NCBI GenBank assembly: GCA_030765065.1
Contig: CM060979.1
Location: forward strand, 106,938,350 to 107,002,349
DNA from: Deroplatys truncata
Lineage: Eukaryota; Arthropoda; Insecta; Mantodea; Mantidae
Reading direction: 5' to 3'
Length of the DNA stretch: 64,000 nt
Within the stretch, counting starts at the first letter, position 1. Each line of letters begins with the position of its first letter. Shown in pieces: positions 1-22,560 of the stretch. The notes under the pieces were generated by a model, which saw only the letters and a program-made list of their open reading frames with translations, was not told the origin of the DNA and ran no database searches. The translations under genes were made by a program, and so were the position numbers.

Positions 1-1235
1 TACATATCCAAAATACACTAGTAATAGAGTTTTTAAGTCAGCCGAGTTTCTGAGCACTTCGATCATAAAGATACCTTTATTAAACTTACCAGCAATATAT
101 TCTATGTGAGTTTATCACTATAATTTAGGGTGAAGAGTAAAAAGCAAACAGAAGCAGATTTATCATAATTAGAAGATTAAAACTATATCTCATATCAGTT
201 GTTTTAACTTAAACTTAGGTTTGTAGTGGTATTTAAGGATAAAAGTATTTCAGAGGAATTGTATTTAATATTATTATGTTGTGTTTAAAGCTGTTAACCT
301 AAGAGAAATGTATGGAAGCGATCTATAAGACATTGTTGGTTGAATGAAAAATCAACAAGCGAGAGGTAAGCCATGAAACCGAGATTTAAAAGGTGAAAGC
401 TATGGAAATTGAAAAGAATAATCACGAATGTTAAAGGAATCTGTGCATTTGTAATAATAATATACATAAAGTGATTAAATAGGATTGTAACAGATATTTT
501 ACAGTAAAATAATAAAACTACATACTGAGAAATGAAAAGATGCGAAGTTATTCGACACGATATACATGGTTATAGCGAGTAAAGGATTTAAGTGCTGATT
601 TTTTATGTACTTTCGTATGCAGACCACTACAGCCTGTTAATATTTATATTAAGTATATCAATAGGTAATAGAGATTATTAACGGCAACCTTGAGAGAAAA
701 TAACAACATTATTAAAACAGATTCTCAGCTCTATCGGAGAACGGTGTAACGACAGATCCAAGCTGCAATCTGAGTCAAGACTGGTAACCAACTGCCGAGG
801 TTATATTATAACTTACTACCATCAATACTCCATTGGCCTACGTTGTCTAAATCCGTCCCAAATTGTTAGCATTACACGATTCAATAATTTTAGCTGAAGA
901 ACTGAGGAACTATTAATTTCTTGAACTCAGCAACGTCTGGATTTCCCTCTGAAGTACTGTTTCGTTGTGCGTTTTTTGTGCATTTTCAACAACTAGAATA
1001 GCAAATCTCTGCAACACACTGCAAGTAAACATGCGGAACTATACACAGCAACAACAGGAACAGTCGCTTTTATTATGAAACATTCTAGCACCACGCCATC
1101 GATCTACTGTAGCACATCAAGATTTGGTGTGGGAAAGTTCCTTGGTGGTTTCCATGTGCAACAACACCATTAAGCGCGCCTTTTAGTTTATTTATGTGTC
1201 TTTTTAAGGTATATTTTTGGAGGATATACATTTTT
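1..1235. other. AT-rich intergenic DNA, no gene seen
   Basis: I see no convincing coding frame, RNA gene or recognisable repeat here. The stretch ends at the T run that precedes the first family H element. Confidence 0.6.
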
Positions 1236-3022
1236 ACTTTCTCTACTACGTATAGTAAGTAGGGGAAGTATTGTATTCCACCCAAAAATTCGATATCGAG
1301 ATTTCACCAGAAATATACGTTTTGAGACCCTCTGAATCCAAAAAAAGCATTTTTGGAAACATGTCCGTGTGTGTGTATGTGTGTCTGTGTGTGTGTCTGT
1401 GTGACTGTGAACAGCATAACTAAGAAACGAACAGTCTGATAACCACCAAACTTGGTATTTAGGTTCAGTATCTTCCAGAGATGTGACACGAAGGTTTTCA
1501 AGAAAATCCCCCCACCTCAGACTACCCTTTACATGGAACATTTTTCGAAAATTTTAATTTTCTCAAAAATGGCTCTAACGATTTTGATTAAAATATCATA
1601 TGTTTAAGATATTGTCATGAGAAATGAAATGTATATCTCGAATTTTCTGGGAATGTCTCCAAAAGTATTCTTCATTGTGAACGACTTTTGCGTAACTGGT
1701 AAACCATAAGAGATTGACAAAATTTTACTACACGAAAAATGTATATCGCGTTAAAATACACAATTTATGTCATATACATTTCTTTTGTTGAGTGAACCGT
1801 TTTCGAGATACTGCTTGTTATTCCCTTAAAGTTTCCAATACTTATACTTTTTCTCAAATTCGTTATTCATTTTTACTTTCTCTACTACGTATAGTAAGTA
1901 GGGGAAGTATTGCATTCCACCCAAAAATTCGATACCGAGATTTCACCGGAAATATATGTTTTGAAGCCCCCTGAATCCAAAAAAAGCATTTTTGGAAACA
2001 TGTCCGTGTGTGTGTCTGTGTGTCTGTGTGTCTGTCTGTGTGTGTGTGTCTGTCTGTGAACAGCATAACTCAGAAACGAACACTCGGATAAACACCAAAC
2101 TTGGTATTTAGGTTCAGTATTTCCAAGGATGCGACACGAAGGTTTTCAAGAAAATCCCCCATCCCAGATTACCCTTTACATGGAACATTTTTTGAAAATT
2201 TTAATTTTCTCAAAAATGGCTCTAACGATTTTGATGAAAATATCATATGTTTAAGATATTTTTATGACAAATAAAATGTATATCTTGAATTTCCTGGGAA
2301 TGTCTCCAAAAGTGTTCTTCATTCTGAACGACTTTTGCATAACTGGTAAACCATAAGAGATAGACAAAATTTTACTACACCAAAAATGTAGATGGCGTTA
2401 AAATACACAATTTATGTCATATACATTTTTTTTGTTGAGTGAACCATTTTCAAGATATTTCTTGTTATTCCCTTAAATGTTTCAATATTTTCTCGAATGG
2501 GAATTCGTTATTCATTTTTTTGTCTTGGATATTCAAAGAGTATTAATCTGTGAGAAAGGGAATGGTGCTGCACCTAGCAACCAGCTATTAAGAGATATGT
2601 ATGTGCTTAAAGGCTACTGTATTTCTATATTGCCCTTGTAAATATATATTCCCCTTACATCTACATGAAAATTAGCAATAAGATAGAGTTTGCAAATGTT
2701 TATCTTGATTAACATGAAGTAGATGGAAAATAAGGTTTGAAAAAATAGTTTGTACAAGAGTAGAGAAAGTCATGTGAGTGTAACACATCAGATTTTTTTA
2801 TGTCATGGACATGCAAAGAGAATTGAATGCGCCACATAGCAACCAGCGTTAAAATATTTGACTATCGCTTAAAACCTACCATATTCCCCTTGCATCTACA
2901 AGAAAATTACCAATAATATTGACATCTCGATATCTCGATTAACAGGAGCATATGGAGAATAAGCGTTTGTAAAAATTGTTTGTGCAGGAGTAGAGAAAGT
3001 CATGTGAGTGTAACACATCAGA
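1236..3022 (+). mobile_element. Family H element, copy A1, split by copy A2
   Basis: Non-autonomous repeat. It opens with the 11-bp motif ACTTTCTCTAC (1236-1246), carries a TG-rich tract around 1363-1400, and closes with the inverse motif GTAGAGAAAGT (2990-3000). A short tail ending ACACATCAGA (3013-3022) and a run of eight T follow. The body is interrupted at 1875-2792 by a second copy: the left part stops in the sequence GTTATTCAT plus T, and the sequence that normally follows (ATGTC, GGACATGCAAAG) resumes after the inserted copy. It encodes no protein. Ends and layout fit a Helentron-derived element, which is inference. Confidence 0.85.
1875..2792 (+). mobile_element. Family H element, copy A2, full length, nested in A1
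   Basis: A 918-bp copy with both end motifs: ACTTTCTCTAC at 1875-1885 and GTAGAGAAAGT at 2760-2770. The terminal tail has a small hairpin (ATGTG / CACAT, 2772-2788) and ends CAGA at 2792. It lies between T runs of the host H copy, so both boundaries are fixed by comparison with the uninterrupted copy at 15807-16714. The TG-repeat tract is near 2007-2057. No coding capacity. Confidence 0.88.
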
Positions 3023-3831
3023 TTTTTTTTGGAATCTTACAGTTTAGTATTGTTAAAAACAAAACCACGCTGTTAGATTGAGACGAAAGAAAAGAAAACG
3101 TACGTGAATTACGTGTTTGTTGTAAAATAAATACTAACACAAAAATAAAATAGTGAAAAAATTATTATTTGCGTTTCCTAATGTGGCACTAGAAGTTGTT
3201 AATTACATCCAGCATATATCATAATTATTTAGAACGAGGGAAGGAATTAATGGGAATAAACATTTCTTTTATAGATCTAAGCATTATAAACCCTTTTGAA
3301 TTGAACTTACTGGTGCATTATTTCAGTATGTTATATATGTAAAACTGACATCGAAAATGGGGGTTTTGACCTACCCTTCCGGAATGTTAAAAAGCTTGAG
3401 CGTTTTCAGTCTTTCGCGAAGCATCACTACTTTTGTCATTTTATAAAACCTGGAAGATCCCATCACAGATGGAAAAGGTTTCAGAAACGTCTGTTATATC
3501 CTAGAAAATATTTATCTCTTTGCTCTTTTGCTTCTTTAAAGCACCACAAAGTCTGCTTTGGTGGCATTAACGAGGGAAGTACGAAAATATGTGTACAAAA
3601 GATAATATGCTGAGAAATATTGCATAAAATGAACAAATCATCACTAGGCTTCGGACACGGTTGCTGTTTCGTTGCACTTTGACTGAAAAACAGTTACGTA
3701 CGCACAGGGTTTCACTGAGACCTCCCCCCTCCCCAAGCACTGACAGTCATTCGCTCTAAACAAGCGTTCAGTACATATACCTACAACCTGTTCTGAAGTT
3801 ACGAAGTCCGGTCGTTGATAGCTGACAAAAC
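3023..3831. other. Intergenic DNA without recognised genes
   Basis: AT-rich with no convincing ORF. A pyrimidine-rich patch lies near 3720-3740. It may include the 5' flank or terminal region of the hAT-like remnant that follows, but I cannot define a terminal inverted repeat. Confidence 0.5.
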
Positions 3832-4385
3832 ATGCCGAAAACAACCAGTAAGAAGAGTGTCTGACTTGTAAATGAATATGGACGCGAGTGTTTTGATGTA
3901 AGAGGGGAAAATATACTTTGTAAAGTATGCCAGATTGAAATCAAAGGAGATTGAAGGGTTTTTATTGCAAGACACTGTAAATCTAAAAAACACTTACAAA
4001 ATATTACGTTGCTTCCTAGAAATGAGGTGGTAAGGATATATTATCCACATCAGAAACCACGAACTCGTGTAGCTAAACCGAAGCTTACAGGGATTCGTCT
4101 GACGTTATGGTAAGCACAAACATCCCATTTAACAAGCTGCAAACTTTTGCTTTTAAAACGTTTCTGCAGAAATGTACAGCTATGAAATTTCCTTGTGAGC
4201 ATACTTTACGCAACTTTTATTTGTCTTTGTCATAGATGGCAATGCCAGAGTTCTTGAAACTTGTCGATAATTTTACACAACACTTTACAAAAGTAGACAA
4301 ATGTTCTACTGCTGAAATAGCACAGTAGAAACTGAATAGTGTTTTAGATAAAAACCCAGGATATGAAATTATGTTCCGTGTTAGG
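3832..4385 (+). pseudogene. Decayed hAT-like transposase N-terminal fragment
   Basis: An ATG at 3832 opens a frame reading MPKTTSKKSV, then a TGA, then LVNEYGRECFDV. A zinc-finger-like stretch follows with CKVC and HCKSKKH, as in BED-like or CGGBP1-like N-termini of hAT-related proteins. Further on, STNIPFNKLQ, FLQKC and TLRNFYL match the part of these proteins preceding the catalytic core. A later frame reads VLDKNPGYEI. At least two in-frame TGA codons (3862 and about 3952) sit where CGA arginine would be expected, which suggests CpG decay. The catalytic domain is missing. The family call rests on motif memory, not a search. Confidence 0.5.
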
Positions 4386-4984
4386 CATTAATAATAATAT
4401 TATATTCTAATGATATTCTAAATAATGAAACTGCATGCGTTTCCCAGAGATGTGTGACGTTCGTCAGTTTCGTCATGTGATGTGGAACGGAGCTTTTCAA
4501 GAAATAAACTTTTTTGAGTTTGAGAAGAGGTTTTGATTTTGATCCATTCAGAAAATATATTGTAATCCATTGTGATAGTTGTCCAGGCATGTGAATCACA
4601 CATGAAACTGATTATTTCATCTGCCACAGTTCAGATTTATTGTTTTATTCATCATATTTTACTTTGTAATAAAAGCTTAAGTTTACTACAGAATTGTATA
4701 CTTACTTCTGTGCCCAGTTGTACCTATAGCGTACACAGTAACAGCACATCACAGGCTTAGTAGCGCACGAGACTGCTGCCTCTCTCCTCTCCGCTCGCTT
4801 GTAAACAAAGTACCAGTATAATAGAAGCTAGCTTAACCTAAAGCCATGTCCGAAGCCTATTCATCACTAATCTCTATATAGGTGCAATATTATGAAACAG
4901 TTTTACCGTGGGAATCCATTCTACCGATCGGTAAGCATTCACAGCAAGCATTATTTATTACAAGCTCGTCTATTTTAAATTCTC
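4386..4984. other. Intergenic DNA, no gene seen
   Basis: AT-rich with short frames only. I recognise no repeat or RNA. Confidence 0.5.
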
Positions 4985-5204
4985 ATTGCCGAGATTTTTG
5001 AGACACGGTCTTGTGAACGGGAGGTCTGCGGTTCAAATCACATCAGAACCGTTCTCTCTGACTGAGAATTTCTTTCCAGGTTTACCTCAATACCCATAAG
5101 TAGCAAATACCGAGGAGGTAATCTAAACTTAGGCCTGGAACGTTTCCTTTCCAAATTTCATTTCCCAGTTATCATTTCATGTATCACTAGTACTACGGCC
5201 TGTT
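4985..5204 (+). mobile_element. tRNA-derived SINE, family S5
   Basis: Contains a polymerase III B-box-like GGTTCAAATCA (about 5031-5041) after a GAACGGGAGGTCTGC segment. A body with CTGAGAATTTCTTTCCAGG and CCATAAGTAGCAAATACCGAG follows. The body is shared with copies at 7560-7790 and 24545-24790, so this is a dispersed repeat and not a tRNA gene. Confidence 0.65.
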
Positions 5205-5520
5205 ATTTTTTAATTTATGTACGTTCTTTAACTACTATGGTTCTTAGCTCCCATTTTATAGGTATATTGGGAGTGAAAGACCGGAAAGTTTACTCCGAGG
5301 CCTCTTTATCAGGTTTGAGGTTCTTTTACGTGCCGTAAATCTACGACACGGGACCACCGGCTTTACTTTCCTTCCGAAGGAAGCCATGCTAAAGATTTTT
5401 ACTCCCGATAAAATCCATTTCCCTCCGCCGGAATTGAACCCGCGACCTCGGGAACTAAAAACATGGTACCCCTAGACTATGGAGGACGACACCTTCGCCG
5501 GTGGTGCCTTATGCAGTAAG
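5205..5520 (-). mobile_element. tRNA-derived SINE, family S2
   Basis: Read on the minus strand, it has an A-box-like TAGTCTAGGGGTA (about 5467-5480) and a B-box GGTTCAATTCC (about 5429-5440). The body contains GTAAAGCCGGTGGTCCCG and TTACGGCACGTAAAAGAA and ends near the 5210s with TAAAGAACGTACATAAA. The body aligns closely with the plus-strand copy at 43005-43270, which proves a dispersed family. Confidence 0.75.
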
Positions 5521-5655
5521 AGCGGGCATTAAGTTTATTCTTTTTTCTCTTCAAGACCTTTTGATGCTGGGCATCCAGTTCACATTTTCCGTTCATTTCT
5601 TCTATATTTCTCCATCCGTACTGTGACGCAGGAGCTAAGACGTACTGATCTATGG

Positions 5656-5846
5656 CCTATCGATAGGTAGGCGTTGGGCAGTTGGAGATAAACAACGATA
5701 AGTAGCGCAAACACTGGAAGATGTATGGGCAAATAACCAGAATCTTCTGGAAGTTTCTTCCCTTCCCAGGTGCTTCCAGATATTTCTAGAATGTTCTGTG
5801 GAGTATTTCATTGGCTATATAAGCGAGCGTTCTCGCGAGAACAGTC

Positions 5847-5887
<41 letters not shown>

Positions 5888-6035
5888 GAGTTGATTCAGT
5901 TAGTGAACGAGTTGCGAGTGCATTTCTAGTGCGACATGAAGTGTGGTTCTCTGAGCGCGCTTGTGACGACTGCTGTAACGTGCAGTGAGAATTTCTGCAG
6001 AAGAGATTAAAGAAGTGTTATGTTCGGACTCCCCA
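5656..6035 (+). promoter_or_regulatory. Heat-shock-type promoter module with TATA box and DRE-like site
   Basis: Elements in order: palindrome CCTATCGATAGG (5656-5667) containing TATCGATA, the DREF recognition sequence of Drosophila; a perfect heat-shock array GAA-TTC-GAA-TTC at exact 5-bp spacing (5740-5757); a second array at 5-bp steps from 5774 to 5796 with one imperfect unit; TATATAA at 5816-5822; palindrome GTTCTCGCGAGAAC (5829-5842); an initiator-like TCAGA with its A at 5847, 31 bp from the TATA start; then a GA repeat (5851-5884). A splice-donor-like CCA/GTGAGT lies at 6036. No chaperone coding sequence follows within the window. It could be the promoter and first exon of a host gene with a long intron, an orphan promoter, or part of a transposable element such as an LTR. 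Confidence 0.6.
5851..5884. repeat. (AG)n microsatellite
   Basis: About seventeen AG units directly downstream of the inferred start site. GAGA-type repeats are typical of Drosophila heat-shock promoters, although there they lie mainly upstream. Confidence 0.95.
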
Positions 6036-7555
6036 GTGAGTGAACCGTCCGCAAGAAGAGGCTATGCCACGAAGAAGGAAGTTGAACTAGTTCACTTTAG
6101 TGAAGTTCAATGAAAGCTGAACTAGCTAAAAACAGTGACAATTGAAAAGTTGGATAAAGTCAGAGTACACATTCTTTTTATTTAAACTGTTGTTTTCCCT
6201 TGTTTCTGCGGTAGCCTTTCTATTCTGTTTTCTAGTTTAATTCATGGCATTCCTCTTCCTATTTTTCCTTCTTCTACTTAACTTTCCTTTCCTCCGTATT
6301 TCTTCATTTGTTACTCTTCTATAACTTCAGTTATTGATTTCTTTAATTTTACCTCTTCACCTATTCTTTCATTTCTAATCCTATCGCTTCTAGGCTTTCC
6401 CACAATTTTCTTAACTGGCTTTAAACACTATTAAAATGGAAGATCCACAGGGAGAAAGAAACAAAGGAACGAAAAAAAAATTGGTAATTTTAGGCGGACA
6501 CAGCATATGTCCATATAACTTTGAAATAGTGCAATTTGAAACAATAATGTTATTTATTCCAAAGAGTTTGGAAATAGAGAGAACTGCTCATTACCGTTTA
6601 TATGATACAATTAACAATGACGTCACGTGGAGTGCGAACGCTTATGGAGTCAACCACACTAAGGTACACAATTTGCGTTCGGAAGCTACAAGGCACATGG
6701 TATGCTCTCAGGAGTCTACACATTGGGTAAGAAGGTAAATATTTGTCTTAAACAGTAACAATGGATAATCCCTGGTCCTGTGAAAACAAGGGGTTCCTGC
6801 GGGTTGTTTAATATTAGGAGGTGCTTGAAGCGGAGCGTAAATGATAAAATGAGCAAGGGAAGGTGATTTGCTGACGACAATGTGCAAGTCGCAGTGGGGG
6901 CCCCTTGTTAACTCAGGAAATAAGAGAGCGACGTACTTCAAGTATCCACTACACAATGGAGCGCTCCCAAACGCTGGCTTGTGTAGTGAGCGCTTGAAAA
7001 AGTTAACAACGGTTTGTTTGTTTGCTCGACCTTTCTCTGATGTAATATGGAACTTCTCCCTTGTGACGTCAGCTTTTAATATGTAGCGTGTAATGACGCG
7101 GCGACAGCGTGTTGTATCAGCAAATTAGGGTTCTGCCGAAATGCACCATTCCGACTCTTCAGCGCTGAACCCGCGCTTCTCAGATGGCAGTTCCATGATA
7201 CTTTTGCTGTCCCGCTGTTGGACCACAATGTTGATGAGCGATGTGCATATTTTAGCTGTAAAATGCATACATTGCAAACTGTTATTAAACTCTGGTCAAA
7301 ACAGTAATTTCATTTCAAATTATATTGTTGGAAACTGCAAGATATCGTGAAAACAAGTATAAACCTAGAATTGTATAATTAAACAAGAAAATATTAATGC
7401 AATATACAAATATTGAAACCAAAAATTTTAAAAATGTTACCCAGTACTCAAATGAAACCTATTATGCACTTAACAGCTTTATTTGTTTAAAAACGCAAGT
7501 GTAATTGTTTTAAAAAGCTGTGAATTATTAAGCTCCAAAAATTAATTAATCTTAA
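6036..7555. other. Unassigned DNA downstream of the promoter module
   Basis: Contains a hairpin-forming stretch (6082-6110), a strongly pyrimidine-rich block (6165-6430) and a 100-codon open frame at 6436-6738 that I do not recognise. A perfect 10-bp inverted repeat, CACTACACAA / TTGTGTAGTG, lies at 6947-6956 and 6979-6988. The frame begins MEDPQGERNKGTKKK, has no recognisable domain and may be chance. Confidence 0.4.
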
Positions 7556-7790
7556 CAATACCTACACGTGTGACCGAGCTCGTTAAAGCATGGACTCGGG
7601 AACGTGAGGTTCCCAGCCGGAACCTACTCTCTGAGTGAGGTTTTTTTTCCAGGATTTCCTCAGTCCTCATAACTGGCAAATGCCGAGGAAGTACTTTGAA
7701 CTTAAGCCAGCTTTCCAAATTTCCTTTTGCAATCATTTCATTTCATATATCAACAGTTTCCACCACCTGTGATGTCGTATGCATTAAGAA
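7556..7790 (+). mobile_element. SINE family S5, copy 2
   Basis: Shares with the 4985 copy the order: tRNA-like head (GTTAAAGCATGGACTCGGG), CTGAGTGAGG, TTTCCAGGATTTCCTCAG, CATAACTGGCAAATGCCGAGG, and a closing CATTTCATATATCA. Related to the copy at 24545. Confidence 0.65.
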
Positions 7791-8337
7791 AGAGCGTTAA
7801 CCTAAAAATTGCCAACAATGCTATCAATTGGCGTCTTTAATATTTTATTTCTGTGCTCCAAAATGAGCCTTTTGGGTATGCCTTTTTATGTTATACTTCT
7901 AAATTATTATTTCCTTATTAATGTTTTTATTCATTCCATTGTTAAGTTTATTAAGCTTAGGAAGCATTGTAGCCACGCATATACGATACGCTTACGTCAC
8001 GACACAATGCTGAACTACAACAGTTCCCTCTTGAAGTCCAATAAATACCGAGACATTATGGGATATTATGTACACTTAATTGCAACTGGAATAATAAGTA
8101 TAAAATTTACTTAACCTAAACTCAAGTAAACAATGAACAACGTTTTATTTGCGTGTTCAGTTTTTGTCTTTTGTTGTTTGTCGTTAACTACAAGAGAAGA
8201 CAGAAGATGCGAATCAAATGGGACGCATGATACCATCCGCTTCGTGCGAATATTAATGCATTTTAACTGCACGCGAAGTAGATTCATAGCTCTGCAACAC
8301 ACAGTAAAGTAATGCAATATTTAAGCATACGAGAAAC
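7791..8337. other. Intergenic DNA, no gene seen
   Basis: An open frame of about 100 codons (7809-8114) is hydrophobic and low in complexity, with no family resemblance. I treat it as chance. Confidence 0.5.
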
Positions 8338-8511
8338 AAGCATTATCTGGAAAATGGTTCACTCAACAAAAAAAATGTATATGACATAAATTGTGTATTT
8401 CAATGCGATCTACATTTTTTGTGTAGTAAAATTTTGTCTATCTCTTATGGTTTACCAGTTATGCAAAAGTCGTCCACAATGAAGAATACTTTTAGAGACA
8501 TTCCCAGAAAA
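8338..8511 (-). mobile_element. Family H element, copy A3, 3' part
   Basis: Inverse of the H interior: GTTCACTCAAC corresponds to GTTGAGTGAAC in plus-strand copies. The copy is truncated at 8338, so the hairpin end is missing. It is cut at 8511 by the LINE and resumes at 14563. Confidence 0.85.
8502..8511 (+). repeat. Left target-site duplication of the LINE
   Basis: TCCCAGAAAA, repeated exactly at 14563-14572. In intact H copies this is a single site (inverse TTTTCTGGGA), so the duplication arose on insertion. Confidence 0.92.
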
Positions 8512-9149
8512 ACCCCTCAGGGGCTCACCTTATGTGAGTACGGGTTTTTGGCGCACCCGGGGGTTCCCGAGCCAGTCATCGCCACATTCATCCCCTCACC
8601 CCCATCCGGTCGAGGTGGGTTCTTCAAGTGACCGGTGGACACAAGGTAGGCTCTCGTGCGTTCGTTACATTCCATTCATACCGCACCTCACCATCGTTTC
8701 TTTCTTCTCTTGTCACTTTCCGGCCATTTCGCACCACGACATTCGCATATCTCTCTTTTTCTTCCCCGCCGGCCTACCTTGCGTGCGAAACGCCCACACA
8801 GTTTTAGTTTCTTTTATCTTTTTATTTAAATCCTCCGTGGACACAGCCTGACGGATACCCGCGCACCGCGTGCGCAGCTGGGTGAGTGGGTAATGGCGTC
8901 ATCCCCACCACCCGGGGTCGTCATGTAGGGTATGTGTTCGTATCCGCTGTTCAACTGCAGTCCCGCGGGGGGGCCATTGCATGAGCTGCTGACTTCTGAC
9001 GGCGATTGGGTCCCTCTGTCTATGTTCTGGGAGGTGTGACCCTGGGGTGAGTCTGGTATAGATAGGCCACTCACCCAAGCCGGGGTAACGCCCGAGAAGT
9101 CAGAGCCCGAGGTCGGAGACGGTTGCAATGGTGGAGGATTTATTTCGCT
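8512..9149 (+). promoter_or_regulatory. LINE 5' UTR and presumed internal promoter
   Basis: Opens with two short hairpins: CCCCT/AGGGG (8513-8523) and CTCAC/GTGAG (8524-8528 with 8534-8538). Non-LTR elements start transcription from such regions without an upstream TATA box, but no promoter motif is certain here. An upstream in-frame TTG exists at 9123; the first ATG in frame is at 9150. Confidence 0.6.
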
Positions 9150-10439
9150 ATGGAGCACCCTTCCTCCATTACTACTAACAAGCGCCGAAAAGTCTATGTA
9201 ACAGAAGTGACACCACCGACAACTGGTTGTTACTTGGTCATTTCACGAACCGAAGAAGGACAAAGCTTTGAGAAGGTGAACCCTTTCATTATTCAAAAGG
9301 GCATTGATGCAATTGCTGGTGCGGTTCAGTCCTGCACTCGTCTACGGAATGGTTCCTTATTAGCCCAAACGAAATCCGATCTGCAAAGTAAGACCTTGTT
9401 GCGCGCTACGCTTCTCCACGGCTATCCTATCCGTGTCGAGAAGCACCGCACATTGAATTCCTGTCGAGGCGTTATTACCACCCATAGCCTCGATGGTATA
9501 TCGGACGAGGACCTGGTAGAATATCTTGCAGACCAGAAGGTGACAGCGGTCCATCGAGTGCAGGCCAAACGCGACGGCGTATTGGTACCCACTCGTACCC
9601 TGTTTATTACATTTGATGGCGTCGATCTGCCCACGAGCATTTCCGCAGGGTACGAACGGATTTCTGTGAGGCCTTATATTCCTAGACCTCTGCGTTGTTT
9701 TAAATGCCAACGTTTTGGGCATACGCAAGTCTCATGTAAGAGTGCCATTAACATCTGTGCAACATGTAGCCAGCCCTCACACGAAGGTACCTGTTCAACA
9801 GCCCCCGTCTGCGTTAATTGCAAAGGGTCTCATTCTGCTTCGTTTGCCGACTGTCCGCGGTACTTGGACGAGAAGGCGATCCAGGAGATCCGGGTAAAGG
9901 AAAAACTCTCCTTCGCTGAAGCCCGGAGGCGTTACCATGCGCGCCAACCTTCACTCATGCGATCTGGCACATTTAGTTCTGTTGTTGCCTCGCCAGTACC
10001 ACGAGTAGATGCCGAAACTCAGACCTGGACCTTGACTGGATTAACCGCCACTACCATCCGGCCGTCTATTAAAGCTACTGTTACCAAGCCTTATAAACCT
10101 GGTCCAAAGTCAATGAAGTCGCAAGCCGCTGAAAAGAAGCCCAAGCAGAAACTACGTAGGGAAGATTTCTTGAAAGACCCTCCGCGTGCGCGCGGTAGCA
10201 AAAGTTCACCTTCTCCTCCTCGGAGGTCGCTGTCCCAGGAAGGTCCTGGGACAAGCCGCGCTCAGCGGCACCCCTCACCCATCGCCACCCAGAACCGATT
10301 CACGGCGCTTGAATCGGTTTCTGGCACTGAGCGCGTGGGCCCTCCCTCCGAGGAAGCTATGGAGTCTGACCAACTCCATACAAAAAGCCCGAGCCCAAAG
10401 GTTAAACAAAAGGTAATTTTAAGCCGCCCTTCTAAGTAG
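9150..10439 (+). CDS. LINE ORF1: Gag-like nucleic-acid-binding protein
   Basis: 429 residues from the ATG at 9150 (MEHPSSITTNKRRK) to TAG. In retrotransposons of this type ORF1 binds element RNA and forms the ribonucleoprotein that reaches the nucleus. Three zinc knuckles stand in a row: CFKC..H..C at residues 183-196 (CX2CX4HX4C), CATC..H..C at 203-215 (CX2CX4HX3C) and CVNC..H..C at 221-235 (CX2CX3HX6C). The segment before them, with SLDGISDEDLVEYL and TFDGVDLP, looks like the RRM-type fold common in these proteins. The C-terminal third is basic and rich in Ser and Pro, so probably disordered. ORF2 follows after 20 bp in another frame, which suggests reinitiation or coupled translation. No stops or frameshifts. 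Confidence 0.93.
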   Translation: MEHPSSITTNKRRKVYVTEVTPPTTGCYLVISRTEEGQSFEKVNPFIIQKGIDAIAGAVQSCTRLRNGSLLAQTKSDLQSKTLLRATLLHGYPIRVEKHRTLNSCRGVITTHSLDGISDEDLVEYLADQKVTAVHRVQAKRDGVLVPTRTLFITFDGVDLPTSISAGYERISVRPYIPRPLRCFKCQRFGHTQVSCKSAINICATCSQPSHEGTCSTAPVCVNCKGSHSASFADCPRYLDEKAIQEIRVKEKLSFAEARRRYHARQPSLMRSGTFSSVVASPVPRVDAETQTWTLTGLTATTIRPSIKATVTKPYKPGPKSMKSQAAEKKPKQKLRREDFLKDPPRARGSKSSPSPPRRSLSQEGPGTSRAQRHPSPIATQNRFTALESVSGTERVGPPSEEAMESDQLHTKSPSPKVKQKVILSRPSK

Positions 10440-10459
10440 ACAGTTTATCCCTTTTATTC

Positions 10460-13400
10460 ATGGCTATCCTGACCTGGAATGTACGTGGTGTACGATCGCA
10501 TAGGGCGGAACTGCAACTTTTATTGCGTTCCCATTCACCTATGGTCGTGTGTTTGCAGGAGACCAAGCTTCGCCCTCACGACCCTTTCGATCTCCGAGGG
10601 TACACTCCGGTTCGCTACGATCTTGAACCGGAGGAGGGTGCTCCTGCTCATGGAGGTGTCATGTTGTTGGTGCGTAATGACGTTCATTTTCATCCTATCA
10701 CACTTACGTCCGACTTGCAAGCTGTTGCCATTAGACTGCAGTTACCCGGTTTTTTCTTTTCTGTTTGTTCTGTGTATACACCTCCATCGTCTCCCCTCGC
10801 TCCCGCGGACATTCGATCTCTCCTGTCCGCTCTCCCAACACCATTTCTTCTTTTGGGAGATTTTAATGCCCATCACCCACTATGGGGTTCGCCAAGGGCT
10901 TGTGCGAGGGGAACTCTTCTTTCGGACATTTTTTATCAGTTCAATCTTTCCATCCTCAATACAGGTGCACCTACTTTTATTTCTGATTCTTCTGGTACAT
11001 TTTCTCACCTGGATCTTGCAATTTGCTCACTCCAGCTTGCACGTCGTCTTCAGTGGAACGTCGTCGCTGACACCTACTCCAGCGACCATTACCCCTGCAT
11101 CGTTTCTCTACTGTCGCACCACGTACAGCATTCCAGAGTACCTACCTGGATATTCGCAAAAGCCGACTGGAGCTTGTATTCCAGCCTCGTGCATTTTGAC
11201 GACCAGCCCTTCTCCGACATTCACCAACTAGTGCAGCACCTTACGTCTGTTCTTTTCTCTGCCGCCGAACGCGCAATACCCCGTTCATCCTCCCAACCTC
11301 GGCGGCCACCTGTTCCGTGGTGGAACGAGGATTGTCGGGACGCCGTTCGTGCCCGTAGGACTGCACTTAGGGTGTTTCGGCGACACCCTACAGTTGATAA
11401 TTTGGTGACTTTTAAACAATCGCGCGCCAGGGCTCGTCGCATTATTCAGGATAGCAAGAAGGCATCTTGGGCTCGTTTTGTCGAGTCTTTTAATCGTTTT
11501 ACGCCTTCATCCGTTGTTTGGGATAAACTTCGTCGCTTCTCAGGTAAAGTGTCACATTGTACTGTTTCTGGCCTTCAGGTTTCTAATGCGACCATAGTGG
11601 ATCCGGCTGCCATCGCTAACACTCTGGGTTCTGCCTTTGAGGCGGTTTCCAGTTCAGACCATTATTCCGCCGGCTTTCGCTCTATTAAAGACCGGCAGGA
11701 TTCCGCATCATATACTTTTCGGTCTGTTAATGATGAATGCTATAACGAACTATTCACAATGAGGGAGCTGGAGCACGCTCTTCATTGCTCTCGGCACTCT
11801 GCTCCCGGGCCGGACGGCATTCATGTCCTGATGTTAAAGAACCTTTCAGCCGACAGTAAACTATTTCTCTTACAGGTCTATAACCGTATTTGGCAAGACG
11901 GCATTTTTCCTTCCGTTTGGCGCGAAGCCACCATTGTCCCTATACTTAAGCCTGGGAAGGATCGCCAACTACCTTCCAGCTACCGCCCTATCTCCCTCAC
12001 CAGTTGCATTTGCAAGGTGATGGAGCGCATGATCAACGGGCGGTTGACATGGTGGCTTGAGTCTCAGAAACTTCTAGCGAACGCTCAGTGCGGGTTTCGT
12101 CGCTATCGCTCTACCGTCGACCATCTGGTGTCCTTGTCGACGCATATTATGAATGGATTTCTGAGAAAGTGTCAAACCGTGGCTGTATTTTTTGACCTGG
12201 AGAAAGCTTATGACACTTGTTGGAGGGGCGGCATTTTACGTACACTTCACGATTGGAATCTCCGCGGTCGTCTTCCCATATTTCTTCGGGAGTTTATGAC
12301 GGACCGCGTCTTTCGTGTACGTGTGGGCTCGGTTTTATCTCGTCGTTTTATTCAAGAGAACGGAGTACCGCAGGGCTCTGTACTCAGTGTCACACTTTTT
12401 GCGATTGCTATCAACCCCATTGTTGATTGTATTCCACCTGGCATTTCATCGTCCCTTTTTGTTGACGATTTCGCTATTTATTGCAGTTCACGGCGGACCT
12501 GTCTACTCGAACGCCGTCTCCAGAGCTGTATCGACCGTCTCTACGCCTGGAGTAACGCCAACGGCTTTAATTTCTCCGCCGAGAAATCCGTCTGCATCAA
12601 CTTTTGGCGCCGGAAGTATTTCCCTCCGCCCACTCTCCATCTTGGGCCAGGGATACTTCCGTTTGCAGACGAGGCGAAATTTTTGGGGTTGATTTTTGAC
12701 AGGAAGTTGTGTTGGACCTCGCACGTTTCCTTTTTAAAAGCAAAGTGTGACCGTTCTCTTAATCTTTTACGTGTTTTAAGTGGCACATCCTGGGGAGCTG
12801 ATCGGACCGTCCTTCTTCGCCTTTATCGCTCTTTGGTCCGATCCAAGCTTGATTACGGGTGTATTGTTTATTCGTCGGCACGTCCATCTGTGTTACGTCG
12901 ATTGAATGCCATTCACCATCGTGGCATAAGAGTCGCTACAGGGGCCTTTCCAACTAGCCCTGTACCCAGTCTGTACGCAGAAGCTGCAGAGCCTCCGCTG
13001 TCCTTCAGGCGTGAGATGCTCTTGTGCAGCTATGCTTGTCGACTCTCAAGCTTGCCTAACCACCCGTCCTTCGATGTATTTTACGAGGATTCGCTTGACC
13101 GGCAATATTTAGTTCGCTCCTCTGCATTGCTCCCTCCAGGGGTTCGATTTCGACTGCTACTTCGGCATTTGGACGTTACGCCAGCGCCGGCCCTTCCACG
13201 GGGGGAAACGCGTTTTCCTCCATGGTCCCGCGCTGCGGCCCACTGTCACCTTGGGCTAACGTCACTGTCGAAGACTGAGACCCCTGCTTCAGTCTTTAGA
13301 TCGGCTTTTTTAGAAGTACGGGCTCAATTCGGGGACTTCCATTTTATCTTTACCGATGGATCTAAGACTGAAGCTGGAGTTGGATGTGCCTTTGTTTCTG

Positions 13401-14149
13401 GTCACTGTAGTTTTAAGTTTCGTTTACCTGCACAATGTTCAATTTTTACCGCCGAACTTTTTAGCATTTATCAATCTATTTTATACATTCAGCGGCACGC
13501 CTTACAGCACTGTTTTATTTGTACGGACTCTCTGAGTGCCCTTCAGACTATTACTGCGCTGTACCATTACCACCCGCTTGTACAGCGCATACATGACCTG
13601 CTCCACTCGCTTGGTGTCTCTGGCATCAGCGTGTCCTTCATGTGGATTCCAGGTCATGTGGGCATCTCAGGGAATGAGTCTGCCGACGCCGCTGCGAAAT
13701 CGGCGATTTTATTACCCAGATTTTTTACTTCTGTTGTTCCCTCGTCTGATTCGTGTATTATTTTACGTCGCCGCATCCTCTCGCGCTGGCGCGATGAGTG
13801 GACGGCCCTCCGGGGGAACAAATTGCGGGAAGTTAAGCCTTTCCCGTTGATCTGGGATACCTCTTCTCGTTCTTGTCGTCGGGAAGAGGTAATTTTAGCT
13901 CGTCTACGGATTGGACATTGTGTTTTTAGTCACAGGTATTTGCTCAGTGGTGACCCCGCACCACTCTGTGGGCAGTGTGTCGTGCCCTTAACGGTGCGTC
14001 ACATTTTAACAGAGTGTCAGGTTTTAGCTGCATTGCGTGCTCGTGTGGGTCTGCCTGTTGGCCTAGCCAACGTTTTGGCAGACGACACGCGTGCTGTAGA
14101 ATGTGTTTTACGTTTTATTCATGACAGTGATTTTAATCTGCGCATTTAA
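10460..14149 (+). CDS. LINE ORF2: endonuclease-reverse transcriptase-RNase H polyprotein
   Basis: 1,229 residues from ATG (MAILTWNVRG) to TAA. The apurinic-like endonuclease spans about 1-225 with N7, E34, GDFNAHH (D134, N136) and SSDHYP (D209, H210); it nicks the target. The reverse transcriptase spans about 430-720 with APGPDG at 448, D579 in FFDLEKAYD, GVPQGSVLSVTLF, and the catalytic FVDD at 667-670. RNase H spans about 960-1085 with all four acidic residues visible (D966 in FTDGSK, E999, D1023, D1076) and H1066 in WIPGHVG. A C-terminal zinc knuckle has C1170, C1173, H1181 and C1186. The frame has no stops and no catalytic loss, so the enzyme is plausibly active. RNase H separates it from Jockey itself, which lacks that domain. 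Confidence 0.95.
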   Translation: MAILTWNVRGVRSHRAELQLLLRSHSPMVVCLQETKLRPHDPFDLRGYTPVRYDLEPEEGAPAHGGVMLLVRNDVHFHPITLTSDLQAVAIRLQLPGFFFSVCSVYTPPSSPLAPADIRSLLSALPTPFLLLGDFNAHHPLWGSPRACARGTLLSDIFYQFNLSILNTGAPTFISDSSGTFSHLDLAICSLQLARRLQWNVVADTYSSDHYPCIVSLLSHHVQHSRVPTWIFAKADWSLYSSLVHFDDQPFSDIHQLVQHLTSVLFSAAERAIPRSSSQPRRPPVPWWNEDCRDAVRARRTALRVFRRHPTVDNLVTFKQSRARARRIIQDSKKASWARFVESFNRFTPSSVVWDKLRRFSGKVSHCTVSGLQVSNATIVDPAAIANTLGSAFEAVSSSDHYSAGFRSIKDRQDSASYTFRSVNDECYNELFTMRELEHALHCSRHSAPGPDGIHVLMLKNLSADSKLFLLQVYNRIWQDGIFPSVWREATIVPILKPGKDRQLPSSYRPISLTSCICKVMERMINGRLTWWLESQKLLANAQCGFRRYRSTVDHLVSLSTHIMNGFLRKCQTVAVFFDLEKAYDTCWRGGILRTLHDWNLRGRLPIFLREFMTDRVFRVRVGSVLSRRFIQENGVPQGSVLSVTLFAIAINPIVDCIPPGISSSLFVDDFAIYCSSRRTCLLERRLQSCIDRLYAWSNANGFNFSAEKSVCINFWRRKYFPPPTLHLGPGILPFADEAKFLGLIFDRKLCWTSHVSFLKAKCDRSLNLLRVLSGTSWGADRTVLLRLYRSLVRSKLDYGCIVYSSARPSVLRRLNAIHHRGIRVATGAFPTSPVPSLYAEAAEPPLSFRREMLLCSYACRLSSLPNHPSFDVFYEDSLDRQYLVRSSALLPPGVRFRLLLRHLDVTPAPALPRGETRFPPWSRAAAHCHLGLTSLSKTETPASVFRSAFLEVRAQFGDFHFIFTDGSKTEAGVGCAFVSGHCSFKFRLPAQCSIFTAELFSIYQSILYIQRHALQHCFICTDSLSALQTITALYHYHPLVQRIHDLLHSLGVSGISVSFMWIPGHVGISGNESADAAAKSAILLPRFFTSVVPSSDSCIILRRRILSRWRDEWTALRGNKLREVKPFPLIWDTSSRSCRREEVILARLRIGHCVFSHRYLLSGDPAPLCGQCVVPLTVRHILTECQVLAALRARVGLPVGLANVLADDTRAVECVLRFIHDSDFNLRI

Positions 14150-14562
14150 TGCGTTGGGCGCCTGTTGGCTTAGTACTTTTATTCTGTCTGTTTTTATGGG
14201 AACTCTTATCCCCAGTGGACATATGGCGCTCATGTCCCTCGCATTCTACAGTTCCTGACACGTTTTAATCGTTTCTTGCCCTTGCTTTTAGTGTGTTGAT
14301 TTTTCAGAACTTTGTATTGTTATTGTTATTCTTGTTGTTCTTGTTATTATTGTTGTTATTGTTATAGTTATTGTTGTTATTGTTATTTTGTTATTGTTCT
14401 GTTTTTAGTTTTAGCTTTTTGAACATCGCGGGTTTGTGTCCCGTTTTTAACTATGCGGTTTTTTACCTGTTTTATATTGTGACCTTATCTTTTATACATT
14501 GTAAGGGCGCTGATGACCGTAGCAGTTTAGCGCCCTTAAACCGCATATCATCATCATCATCA
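14150..14562 (+). promoter_or_regulatory. LINE 3' UTR with terminal hairpin and ATC-repeat tail
   Basis: Contains a TTG/TTA-rich stretch (about 14310-14400), then a perfect 9-bp stem AAGGGCGCT (14503-14511) / AGCGCCCTT (14529-14537). The end is a short CAT/ATC repeat, not poly(A). A 3' stem next to a simple repeat is the usual signal by which such an element's reverse transcriptase recognises its RNA; that role here is inference. Confidence 0.75.
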
Positions 14563-14572
14563 TCCCAGAAAA
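14563..14572 (+). repeat. Right target-site duplication of the LINE
   Basis: TCCCAGAAAA, identical to 8502-8511. Confidence 0.92.
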
Positions 14573-14976
14573 TTCGAGATATACATTTCATTTCTCATGA
14601 CATTATCTTAGGCATATGATATTTTCATCAAAATCGTTAGAGCCATTTTTGAGAAAATTAAAATTTTCGAAAAATGTTCCATGTAAAGGGTAGTCTGGAG
14701 TGGGGGGATTTTCTTGAAAACCTTCGTGTCGCATCTCTGGAAGATACTGAACCTAAATACCAAGTTGGTGTTTATCCGACTGTTCGTTTTTGAGTTATGC
14801 TGTTCAGACACACACACACAGACACACACACACAGACACACACACGGACATGTTACCAAAACTGCTTTTTTTGGATTCAGGAGGTCTCAAAACATGTATT
14901 TCCAGTGAAATCTCGGTATCGAATTTTTGGGTGGAATGCAATACTTCCCCTACTTACTATACGTAGTAGAGAAAGT
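14563..14976 (-). mobile_element. Family H element, copy A3, 5' part
   Basis: Continues the copy interrupted at 8511. On the minus strand it starts with ACTTTCTCTAC (inverse at 14966-14976), followed by the conserved ACGTATAGTAAGTAGGGG segment and the TG-rich tract (14807-14845). Confidence 0.9.
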
Positions 14977-15806
14977 AAAAATATACTTTAAAGAAGTGAA
15001 TACGACAGCGTCCTAATAAAAGGTTAAATGAGGGTAATCCAGGAAGCAATGTTTTGCATTGCCGCTGCGCAAATCACTGTCCGGCTGCTATACAAGGTTG
15101 AATAGTTTCCTCGAAATATTTTCTCATTGTTGCATTAATGTCAGTATAAATAAGTTATTGCGCATTCTGTGATTAGTGTACGAACAAGTGTGCATGACGA
15201 AACTCCACTCGAACTTCCGTCACTCAGCAGCCATCAGAGATGGTCTGAAGAATCAAGCGAATAAAAATGGTGATAGACGCGTAAATCTTGATGAGTCACA
15301 GATTTCTTTCCTAAGCATTTCTCGTTCTTTGCTTGGTGAAATTATGCCGAAACATCCTAACTTAATGACTGCGATACGCCAATTCTACGACTCATATGTG
15401 AAATGCTTAAATAATGAAGGTGATTATGTGCAGAAATAAACTAAGCTTCAATTTTGTGGCATTATATAGGTTCGCTAAGATCGAAAAGTTAAGCTAATTA
15501 TGCATTGGGGCTATTGAAGAAATAATTGATTAGATGCTTGTTATTGTAAAACATATAAAAGGATGAAAAATACTACAAAACCTCAGTTGGTAAGGTAAAT
15601 ACAATAATAATTCTGAAAATATGTTCTACGTAATGTTCTTCTGCATCAACCCTGTAGATTGTATATCAACCTACAAAGCAGCAAAGCAATAAAGACACCG
15701 AGACAGCTCACCTCTTTCATTACTGCATGCAGTATCCAGCGGCTTTACTTCAACATCAACCTATTACAAAGAATTCTCATATCAAAGTAGTACTTAACGA
15801 TTTTTT
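14977..15806. other. Intergenic DNA with a possible mariner C-terminal fragment
   Basis: Most is unassigned. A plus-strand open frame (15176-15439, 87 codons) ends YVKCLNNEGDYVQK before a stop, which resembles the C-terminus of mariner transposases (CLNxxGDYVEK). The first two-thirds of that frame match nothing I recognise, so only about 15356-15439 is tentatively assigned to mariner. Confidence 0.35.
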
Positions 15807-15943
15807 ACTTTCTCTACTACGTATAGTAAGTAGGGGAAGTATTGCATTCCACCCAAAAATTCGATACCGAGATTTCACCGGAAATACATGTTTTGAGACC
15901 TCCTGAATCCAAAAAAAGCATTTTTGGAAACATGTCCGTGTGT

Positions 15944-15977
<34 letters not shown>

Positions 15978-16714
15978 CTGTGTGTGTGTGTGTGTGTCTG
16001 TGTGTGTGTCTGTGTGTCTGTGAACAGCATAACTCAAAAACGAACAGTCGGATAAGCACCAAACTTGGTATTTAGGTTCAGTATCTTCCAGAGATGCGAC
16101 ACGAAGGTTTTCAAGAAAATCCCCCCACCCCAGACTACCCTTTACATGGAAGATTTTTCGAAAATTTTAATTTTTTCAAAAATGGCTCTAACGATTTTGA
16201 TGAAAATATCATATGTTTAAGATAATGTCATGAGAAATGAAATGTATATCTGGAATTTTCTGGGAATGTCTCCAAAAGTATTCTTCATTGTGAACGACTT
16301 TTGCATAACTGGTAAACCATAAGAGATAGACAAAATTTTACTACACAAAAAATGTAGATCGCGTTAAAATACACAACTTATGTCATTTACATTTCTTTTG
16401 TAGCGTGAACCGTTTTCGAGATATTGCTTGTTATTTCCTTAACTTTTCCAATACTTATACTTTTTCTCAAATTCGTTATTCATTTTTTTTATGTCCTGGA
16501 CATGCAAAGAGAATGGAATGCGCCACATAGCAACCAGCGTTAAAATATTTGACTATCGCTTAAAAGCTACGATATTTCCCTTGCATCTACAAGAAAATTA
16601 CCAATAAGATTGACATCTCGATATCTCGATTAACTTGAAGCATATGGAGAATAGGCGTTTGTAAAATTAGATTGTACAAGAGTAGAGAAAGTCATGTGAG
16701 TGTAACACATCAGA
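15807..16714 (+). mobile_element. Family H element, copy A4, full length
   Basis: A 908-bp reference-quality copy. ACTTTCTCTAC lies at 15807-15817 after six T, and GTAGAGAAAGT at 16682-16692. The tail ends CAGA at 16714 and four T follow. A long TG/TCTG microsatellite lies at about 15937-16022. Confidence 0.9.
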
Positions 16715-19700
16715 TTTTATATTAGTGTCGTATAGGAATACGTGATTCATAAAACAATTGCCAATAGAATAACATTAAAGTTTACGTTTTAAATATTAAG
16801 CATGTCTAAGCTGTAAATTCGTAACGACCCTTAATGTAATTAATATCATTTATCTACTATTGTTTGGCAACAGAATAGTTAATTGTTTGAGTAAGAGAAG
16901 ATCTTTATGTTCATTTGAAACACAACCCGATTAAAATCTAAAACATACACTTTTAAAACCAAATATACATTAGAATTCCTCGGAAACGACTTGTCGATCA
17001 TATAATATACATAGAAGTAGGTTTTGGCCATGATAAATAAACTACATGTAACTTATTATATATTTATTTTCTGTGTTTTTAAATTATTTTTCATGAAGCA
17101 GACAAAACATAAATAAAATAGTGTAGCCAAGAGCTGAGGCAGTATTTTTAACACTTAAATGATTTCAGTCTAATTATATAATATAATTCAATAACAACCC
17201 GCCTTGAAGCAATACGTGTATGTAATAATTTGTAAAATGTATATAACAGTCATTGCATATGCTTATATTATTGTATACATGTTCAATAATGTTATGTGAA
17301 TGTATTACGTAATTTAATAATGTGGGAGTTGTGAGAAAGAGGTCAAAAGTTGCTAACAATGAGGTAATGATGTGGTAACCTTGAGGCAATAATGAATTTG
17401 ATACTCTAACAATACTACTCGTCATTATTGGAGCAACAATAATGTAATTTTAGTGACAGTTTACAAACTAGGCAATCAACAACCAGAAAAAGCTTTAGTT
17501 AAATGAAGGTATTCTATTGGAGTAGGATTAGCCAATCAGAAACTGAAAAGAAGAAAATTTTACAAATTTAGAGTTCAGTTACCTGCAAACAGTGTCCTCG
17601 AGAAGTGTAATACGTATTCGTGTGAGGCGAAAATGGTTTACGTATTAAAAACTGCAAGTGTTTAATAAAAACATCTCACAGCTCTCTCTATATCAGTGAA
17701 GTGTTATATAAATTGTATCAAGTATTAACAAAAGGAGTGAAGTAAAATTATAATCTGTGTAAGCCTACATTCTTGTCGCATCACAACCCTGCTAAGAGAA
17801 ACGTGTCTCTAACAATAATACTGACGCAGCCGAGGCAAAAATGAATATATAATATTTAAAGAAAGAGTCAAAAATTAAAAAGTTAATATTTTTTTAAACT
17901 TGGGACAAAGGCCACCTGAAAGTACATTTAGGGCGAAGGCTACCGGAAACTCTTTACTATACGTGCGGTTGCAACTACTACAAGTTCGGCTCCCCAACAG
18001 TTGAAATATAATACAACTCCTTCAATACAATACTACTTCTTAAACTGACGCCCAAAGCGTGGTGCAAATAACGTAAAGATATAATAACCTTCTTCAAATT
18101 GGCATCCATACGTGGAGCTAATAGAAAAACGTTCTTCAGAGCTTACAAAATTAGTTTTACTAACTTACGGGTCTTAGAACTCTACCTCCTGTTGTATTCT
18201 GACCTGACTTCTCACAACTAAAGACAGATAGTTGTCTAAAGAACTATTAGGTGTTGCTGAAGGTTTCGAAATGTCTCTCTTGGAAGTGGGCAATGGTTGG
18301 AATGCAACTGAGTTTGTTTTGTTATTACTAAATATTAAACTTTCAAAATATTTATCTCTGTTAGAATAATTTCACGAATTATCAAAATTGGGTGCAGGTA
18401 ATACACAAAGAAAAAATCATTTCAGTTTTGGATATTAGTTTTACTACTTCGTTATTGCCATAATTCATAAACACTCTTAGTGAAACGCAAACAAAGCTAG
18501 AGATCGCCTTTAGCAGTTGAATAATCACAAATAAAATTCCCAATACGAGTGGCTGTTGTAAACCTAGAACATTTGAACAAACAAAAATTCCGCATATAAA
18601 GCTTCATTGGTTAGGATACTAAGTAGGTTAAATAATAAATGCACCTGTTGTAGCGGAAGGTGAATTATATGAAGCACGAACATATCTGGTGTATTCAGGG
18701 CAAAACGCCATAAGCGTAAACGTAACAAATAGAATATGGTACGAAAGACCAGAAATGGTTTATATTTATTTCATTCACTAACACATGTTTCGGTTTGTAC
18801 AGTAATGTTACATTTGAAGAGAAAAGTGTCCTAGGCTGTTAAAATGTCCAGCCCATATGCTTTTGTTACATCCTTCCTAAGTAAGCCGGCTAAGTAACCT
18901 CTATCAGCTATCAACAGCAGTTTTGCTACATACAGGGGTAGTTAGAATTCGCTTCCAGTGTGTTCTAAAACGGCTGGAATTAGAAATTCTGAGTGCAGGT
19001 ACTGAGTTTTCAGGCCAGTGTTTATATGCTCTATTTACAGATAAACTGAATGTTTCCGCTTTTTGGTAACATATAAGTCGTGCTATATGCTAAAATGTAA
19101 GTTTTTTTGATCGATAAGTCATGCAAAATCAATTATCGATATGAATCATGCGGGTCATATTAAAAAGGTCAATGTTTTAAGCACATTACAGTCCTCTTCA
19201 TTGTATTGAAGGGGAGGACTGTCATGTGCTTGAAACGTTCCCATTTTTAACTCATTACAGAGAAAATCGGTTTAAACTTGAACAATACGTTTGTATGTTC
19301 TGAAACTAAATGTCTTTTTAATACGTGTAGAAAGTAAAATAGCTATCAATTTAAGTAAAACAAAAAGGTGAATATTATGCATTCCACAGAAAAGTATAAA
19401 TTCATGCATTTTCGGATTCTTTTCAAAACGAATATAGCTCAGTTAGTAACTTTACAATTACAATTATATGCTATATCATAGATGGCTTTGATGCTGGAAC
19501 AATTACACATGAATAATTATCACTCGTTTATAGCCTGTAATAATTGCTGAGCTTTGTGTTAATTTTTTTTGCCCATTTAGCCGATTTGGGGCATGCCCCT
19601 TACACAGCATGTAAAACTTGAGGGCGGGATTGGCTCGGAAATGGTAACGAGGGGTCAAGTAAGAATCCAATTTCCATGCTGAACACTTTATTGTTCACAT

Positions 19701-21599: not shown

Positions 21600-22560
21600 A
21601 CTATGGGGCAATGTTTCCCAATAGAGAGTTTTTGGACATGCTGTTAGTAAACGGGGAAGCGCAGCAAAACGCAACGGACGCACGTCGTCTAGACCAACAG
21701 AGGTTTCCGCAGAGAACACTTCCTACAGATCACACGCTTTTGCGAGTTGCGAACCGCCTTCTGGAACCATGAAAAGTGCACAAGCTACCACATCCACGAA
21801 GAGATCACCCTGTCTGTGACCAAGCAATGAGCATCCTGTGACTGACTATGCCATTCAGCACCCGCGTAGTAGTACGAGGGACATTAACAGTCATTTCAAT
21901 ATTAGCCAATCCTCCGCGTGGAGAATACTACATCATGCAAAGTTTCACCCTTATCTTCAACTACACTGGGAGCTACTGCAGCCGTACCATGGACAGAGAG
22001 TGGCATTCGCTAGGTGGATCATACGGCAAACTGAATAAGATCCATAGTTTTTGACAACTACTATTTACAGACGAAGCAGGGTTCCACAACACAGGCCATA
22101 TATGTCACCACAATATGAATTACTGGAGCACTGTAAACTCACATTGAATGCGAGAGGCGGCCTTACAAGTCCGATGGGGTTTCAACATTTGCACTGGCAT
22201 ATTTGGTGATCATCTAATAGGCCCGTATTTTTATGATGGCCAACTCGCTGGGAATCGCTATACACACACCCTACAACACCAGCTGCCTACTCTACTGGAT
22301 GAAGTGCCGTTGCAGAACCGACTGTGTGGTACCAACATGATGGGGCGCCAGCCGTCGTGTAACGGATTATCTCGACGTCACCTATCCTGAGCGATGGATC
22401 TATAGGAATGGACCAATAGGGGGATCAACACGCTCACCAGATCTAAGCCCATGAGATTTATTCTTATGGGGTTATCTTAAAGATATCGTGCACTAGGAGC
22501 AGCCAATGATCCCTCAACAACTCAGGGAACGAATCATCTTACCTTGCCGTGACATCAAAC
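21600..22560 (+). pseudogene. Decayed Tc1/mariner-superfamily (IS630-like) transposase
   Basis: Reading across frames, visible blocks are: N-terminal helix-turn-helix with GEAQQNATDARRLDQQRFPQ, TRDINSHFNISQSSAWRILH (second DNA-binding helix), HGQRVAFARWI, LFTDEAGFHNTGH (first catalytic Asp), GIFGDHLIGPYFYDGQL, LLDEVPLQNRL, and a final DLSP.DLFLWGYLKDIVH block. Stops (for example TGA at 21769 and about 21839) and frameshifts break it, so it is not functional. Length and block order match the roughly 300-residue insect transposases of this type. Confidence 0.78.

Follow-up and report, generated by a model that had tools for sequence, protein, structure and literature searches.

Why should a densely built heat-shock-type promoter stand in a stretch of insect DNA in which no chaperone gene follows it? 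The question is raised by a locus of the mantis Deroplatys truncata that lies in a window of 64,000 nucleotides, the whole stretch of DNA analysed here (contig CM060979.1 of assembly GCA_030765065.1, positions 106,938,350 to 107,002,349). A preliminary description of the locus offered two answers, namely a host gene that begins here with a long first intron or a heat-responsive mobile promoter. As set out below, the region 5622-6164 is very probably a solo LTR from an old family of the Ty3/gypsy type, whose U3 region contains two phased arrays of heat-shock elements (HSEs) upstream of a TATA box in the layout of an hsp promoter, and whose ancestors would have been driven by heat shock factor (HSF). 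As the LTR of a retrotransposon with HSF motifs of its own, such a promoter does not imply that a chaperone gene follows.

Promoter motifs in the window

The following motifs were recognised in the window copy:

5658..5665, TATCGATA palindrome, private to the window copy (0/40 other copies)
5739..5758, distal heat-shock element array in U3, four perfect units at 5740, 5745, 5750 and 5755 (12/12 core letters)
5773..5797, proximal heat-shock element array in U3, five units at 5774, 5779, 5784, 5789 and 5794 (14/15 core letters)
5816..5822, plus strand, TATA box TATATAA (245/271 letters match the window in other copies)
5847, plus strand, predicted transcription start and start of R, placed by the TATA spacing and an initiator-like A
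5847..5890, plus strand, GA microsatellite, long in the window copy only
6036..6041, plus strand, GTGAGT donor-like site, a minority feature of the family (10/40 other copies)

The nine GAA/TTC units had been described as strictly phased with a single imperfect member, and this is confirmed: they contain 26 of 27 core letters, all are in 5-bp phase, and the sole imperfect unit, at 5779 in the proximal array, reads GAT. TATATAA at 5816 and the initiator-like A at 5847 are likewise present as read, and the arrays sit 51-107 bp upstream of the latter. The window copy thus bears the marks of a heat-shock-element promoter: upstream of a TATA box it has three or more units that alternate between nGAAn and nTTCn in 5-bp phase.

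The view that such an assembly would hardly arise by chance was borne out by 400 simulated 64-kb windows, generated with a second-order Markov model built from the window. Four-unit sites with 12/12 core letters occurred 0.04 times per simulated window, five-unit sites with at least 14/15 letters occurred 0.0275 times, and none of the 400 windows contained both arrays with starts 18-60 bp apart. A chance origin of the arrays was rejected on these grounds; given the rarity of each array and the lack of any simulated window with both, the assembly is therefore a real promoter-like one.

Two further motifs had been counted as parts of the promoter design. The DRE-type palindrome TATCGATA is indeed present, and it is also found at 19134 in the window, but its lack in the other copies speaks against a role in the design. 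The GA repeat is present too, but its longest run amounts to 33 in the window copy and to at most 15 in the 40 other copies; GAGAGAGA occurs in 4/40 other copies. GA- or CT-rich microsatellites that match the GA run lie elsewhere in the fetched loci (L015 8689-8787, L020 3051-3108 and L022 5775-5834) and, thus, GA runs are not special to the LTR.

Copies elsewhere in the genome

The stretch 5656-6160 served as the query in a search of the whole genome of the species (4.29 Gb, 818 contigs), as the preliminary description had proposed. Forty of 5141 first-look candidates were scored, the copies being picked by similarity to the window. The query is matched in at least 39 other places on 12 contigs, and the main matches are 66-82% identical among the matches listed (55 matches at 40 places, of which the window is one). 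Fifteen of the 39 other places match as a single piece running from query positions 3-26 to 427-487; the remaining places are partial, many of them beginning near query position 230, or broken into pieces. Self-comparison (E 1e-8) revealed no second copy inside the window, and a 21-mer found no match among viral contigs.

Twenty loci (L009-L028) were fetched at about 10 kb, and paired LTRs are visible only in these; 19 loci (L029-L047) were fetched as short stretches, and the 40th place is the window. The 47 copies referred to below are pieces in these 40 loci, with two fragments each in L019, L023 and L046 and two copies each in the four loci with paired LTRs. HSE zones were compared in an alignment of 41 of the 47 copies (length at least 440), and pairwise identity and column diversity in 21 of the first 26 copies (length at least 500). 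Judged by its divergence, the LTR family is old, the median pairwise identity of the 21 copies being 0.756. Counts of copies are not independent and may overstate conservation because the copies share ancestry and were selected by their similarity to the window.

Anatomy of the LTR

The copies share a common unit of about 560 bp, which runs from TGTGAC to GTCACA. In the window the unit and its borders are as follows:

5618..5621, target-site duplication GTAC, left, by direct reading identical to 6165-6168
5622..6164, plus strand, probable solo LTR of a Ty3/gypsy-type retrotransposon, recognised by genome matches, shared ends and paired LTRs elsewhere
6165..6168, target-site duplication GTAC, right, with no primer-binding site after it

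The window copy starts with TGTGAC and ends with GTCAGA, where many other copies read GTCACA. Of the 47 copies, 17 have both a TGTGAC-like and a GTCACA-like end when a single mismatch is allowed in each. An exact 4-bp duplication flanks four of the 13 both-ended LTRs without a known partner (L017, L036, L045 and the window), eight of the 13 being short fetches in which a partner would be invisible.

Four of the 20 loci fetched at about 10 kb (L021, L022, L026 and L028) contain two direct, near-full LTR copies, whose starts are 1.5-4.2 kb apart and which are 72-81% alike. In all four, TGGTGTCAGG(A/T)GTGG stands no more than two bases behind the first LTR, and in L029 an LTR is joined to this sequence with 0 mismatches. 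Primer-binding sites start with TGG, and by both position and form the sequence is PBS-like. In L021, L026 and L028, a run rich in purines lies before the second LTR. Behind the window LTR, the best fit to the 18-letter PBS has 15 mismatches and no primer-binding site was recognised. The sequence ATTAAA/AATAAA was rejected as a poly(A) signal setting the R/U5 border, as it stands at the window's position in just 5/40 other copies.

Two internal pieces of a single locus, L026, match the reverse transcriptase and RNase H of Ty3 (PDB 4ol8) with E values of 6e-14 and 6e-10, and by this homology the family is assigned to the Ty3/gypsy type. The pieces are similar to the yeast Ty3 enzymes (PDB 4ol8, 7q5b), but L026 has fragments only: the open reading frames listed after RNase H, where a Ty3/gypsy element would have its integrase, are short and without an assignment, a gag-like piece has no PDB match at E 0.1, and neither an integrase nor an intact pol was seen in the fetched copies. 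The ONSEN family proper, which belongs to Ty1/copia, was rejected because the pieces are Ty3-type reverse transcriptase and RNase H.

For most of their length, the short internal regions of L021 (4523-5461) and L028 (4314-5300) can be aligned to one another, and each also matches the two ends of the internal region of L026 (4345-7986), the L021 alignment covering 53-410 and 3270-3589 of its 3642 positions. Both loci thus seem to be without the same middle part. This shared internal deletion suggests a gag-pol-less, non-autonomous derivative that would have been amplified in trans. The internal region of L022 is arranged differently from those of L021 and L028.

Heat-shock elements across the family

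By their recurrence, the predicted heat-shock elements belong to the LTR family. At least one perfect adjacent pair of units is present in the HSE zone (5725-5812, 88 bp) of all 41 near-full copies, and at least two pairs are present in 34 of them. The control zone (5892-6100), which at about 209 bp is longer than the HSE zone, has no perfect adjacent pair in 38 of the 41 copies. With five perfect adjacent pairs, the window copy is among the top 7 of the 41.

Identity to the window copy was counted letter by letter. According to these counts, the distal array (406/468 letters in cores, 261/311 in spacers) and the TATA box rank with the best-conserved parts of U3. The proximal array comes close to the average, its cores being better kept than its spacers (250/338 letters for units 5784-5796 and 132/226, respectively). 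The corresponding values are 958/1391 for the flank 5700-5735, 8098/10159 for 5892-6160 and 13983/18346 for all positions. Outside the arrays, the 20-bp stretch 5682-5701 is kept at 0.84, and the initiator columns 5844-5850 are at most moderately conserved (0.586). Column diversity amounts to 0.286 in the HSE cores, 0.371 in the letters between them, 0.225 in the rest of U3 and 0.193 in 5892-6163; part of the higher diversity of the cores may be due to misalignment. A TATA box was recognised in 24/40 other copies and a CCAAT-like ATTGG in 11/40. The loss of units and TATA boxes and the diversity of the cores fit decay after insertion combined with turnover of the arrays.

The same decay raises the question of whether the promoter still works. 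We consider the odds to be about even that the arrays are ancestral HSF sites that now lie idle, the window copy being dead and silenced, with motifs that are still there because they decay slowly. This is compatible with the explanation given at the outset, in which the predicted drive by HSF concerns the ancestors. A dead repeat would agree with the age of the family, with the solo state of the LTR and with the many copies that are without some units or the TATA box. However, the window copy has retained its 26 core letters, its TATA box and its spacing, and its number of perfect pairs places it near the top of the family.

It could also be argued that the GAA/TTC arrays serve another factor or are purine/pyrimidine-rich sequence rather than heat-shock elements, as there is a GA run in the neighbouring sequence as well. 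We regard this as very improbable, since the alternation is strict. Of the 47 copies, 31 have a perfect three-unit site with 5-bp spacing and 16 have none, whereas spacings of 4, 6, 7, 8, 9 and 10 gave 0, 2, 0, 1, 0 and 0 copies. The preliminary description had staked its reading on the motif spacing being conserved in other copies, and the spacing is kept. The trinucleotide is specific, too: when each of the 64 trinucleotides was alternated with its own reverse complement, GAA/TTC was found in 31 copies and the next best in seven. The arrays are, moreover, placed upstream of a TATA box. As a background, the three-unit site occurs in 10 of 498 windows of 560 bp taken from the first 20 loci and the surroundings of the LTR in the window.

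Search for a gene behind the promoter

A gene behind the promoter was sought with Pfam on both strands. Seven large open reading frames were scanned. On the plus strand, the frames of 5900-8200 and 14401-64000 were scanned with stops replaced by X, and 8201-14400 was covered by its two largest open reading frames (9066-14149). On the minus strand, 1-5700 and 14401-64000 were scanned in the same way, and 5701-14400 was covered by two open reading frames. No chaperone or host domain was found on the plus strand in 5900-8200, 14401-64000 and the open reading frames of 9066-14149, and no host gene on the minus strand in 1-5700 and 14401-64000. Eight probes for chaperones and stress proteins gave a best E value of 0.11. 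Rfam at the gathering threshold and ARAGORN returned nothing. The statement that no chaperone coding sequence follows on the plus strand thus holds for these Pfam ranges and probes, and a host hsp gene with its chaperone coding sequence behind the promoter was rejected within the window.

The plus-strand Pfam matches are LINE domains and three matches below the cut-off, namely DUF7496 (E 0.08), a helix-turn-helix fragment of DUF4817 (21635-21757) and a DDE_3 transposase fragment (59660-59752). The LINE (9066-14149, plus strand) is apparently intact and possibly young; it consists of a 457-aa frame with CCHC-like motifs and a 1237-aa frame with endonuclease, reverse transcriptase and RNase H, and the stop-to-stop ranges of the two frames overlap by 4 nt. 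A reverse transcriptase fragment (RVT_1) lies at about 49831-50286 on the minus strand. Other repeats include a family with GT-rich microsatellites (1225-3029, 14563-16729, 37386-38626 and 50291-51137), several copies of which are about 82-94% alike and which occurs in both orientations, and diverged tandem-like units about 75% alike at 19946-21241. Near the solo LTR there are SINE-like repeats, which pair 5208-5454 with 43018-43258 and 5038-5135 with 7611-7708 and in which a tRNA-like B-box was seen by eye.

The first of the two answers offered by the preliminary description fits these results poorly. A host gene of the hsp90, BAG or ubiquitin type would have to start at 5847, its first exon being noncoding and its first intron more than 58 kb long, and the promoter would be either its original one or a co-opted LTR. 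The promoter is strong and hsp-like, a simple matrix places the donor-like GTGAGT at 6036 within the best 3.1% of the 3707 GT sites in the window, and long introns are plausible in a genome of this size. However, the promoter and the putative exon both lie within an LTR flanked by a target-site duplication, the donor is shared with a minority of the family, and the scanned ranges hold no host exon that was recognised. We therefore consider such a gene very unlikely. Co-option of the LTR by a gene beyond the window may nevertheless have occurred.

The least probable reading, in which a genuine hsp70 promoter and 5' UTR would have lost their coding part or become separated from it, can hardly be upheld: a 16-letter stretch in 5847-6165 matches a Drosophila hsp70 5' UTR with one mismatch, but the match is weak, 9/1000 shuffles and 4/796 windows (two of which overlap the same 16 letters) score as high, and the paired copies, the PBS-like sequence and the pol pieces account for the stretch. 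An ancestor of the LTR may, at an earlier time, have captured an hsp promoter.

Proposed mechanism and comparison with known systems

For the solo LTR, the following course of events is proposed. In active ancestors, the host HSF would have bound both arrays and switched on the TATA promoter, and the element's genomic RNA would have been produced during heat stress, with transcription beginning near 5847. Because HSF presumably bound the arrays, the element would have been transcribed and could have transposed under heat stress. Recombination between the two LTRs would then have left the solo copy in the window. This copy cannot move by itself; it could be the start of a heat-induced noncoding transcript running into the downstream intergenic DNA. 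Of the heat-responsive mobile promoter that had been suggested, the mobile part is upheld by the dispersed LTR, while the heat response is read from the motifs.

Several systems resemble the family in part. ONSEN (ATCOPIA78) of Arabidopsis thaliana is a heat-activated LTR retrotransposon with a heat response element, nTTCnnGAAn, in its LTR that is bound by HSFA2 (PMC3907296, PMC5056178). Both families thus have such elements in the LTR. However, ONSEN is a Ty1/copia element of a plant and has active copies, whereas the family described here is Ty3/gypsy-like, old and resident in a large animal genome, has two arrays (nine units in the window copy) upstream of the TATA box, and is known from its sequence. 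In Caenorhabditis, Helitrons have spread HSF-1 binding sites through the genome (PMC6927752). They are likewise a transposon family that distributes such sites in an animal genome, but they are DNA transposons, and the sites described here are part of an LTR retrotransposon's promoter region. The promoters of insect hsp83, hsc70-4 and hsp40 have contiguous or split arrays about 30-115 bp upstream of the start (PMC4717527). The arrays are similar in size and position and also consist of several units; those promoters belong to host genes, whereas the one described here belongs to a dispersed repeat, behind which the window shows no chaperone. In the open-access literature searched, no title or abstract opening dealt with an insect HSE-bearing LTR, which does not show absence from print. 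We classify the family as a new one of a known kind, the HSE-bearing LTR retrotransposons.

Significance for the host genome

A wider scenario can be outlined, although we hold it to be rather doubtful as a whole. A Ty3/gypsy lineage would have gained an hsp-type U3 promoter, spread under active HSF and left many solo heat-shock promoters scattered over an animal genome of 4.3 Gb, a gag-pol-less derivative being amplified as well. The copies might act as a sink for HSF and give rise to heat-induced noncoding RNAs and heat-responsive alternative promoters. For genome annotation, the locus is a warning that a textbook heat-shock promoter does not necessarily mark a chaperone gene. If the arrays respond to heat, the family would be an animal Ty3/gypsy counterpart of ONSEN that has spread heat-shock promoters, ready for use, throughout a giant genome. 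If this is true, it would become testable whether transposons in such genomes become active in heat waves and whether solo LTRs draw neighbouring genes into the heat-shock response.
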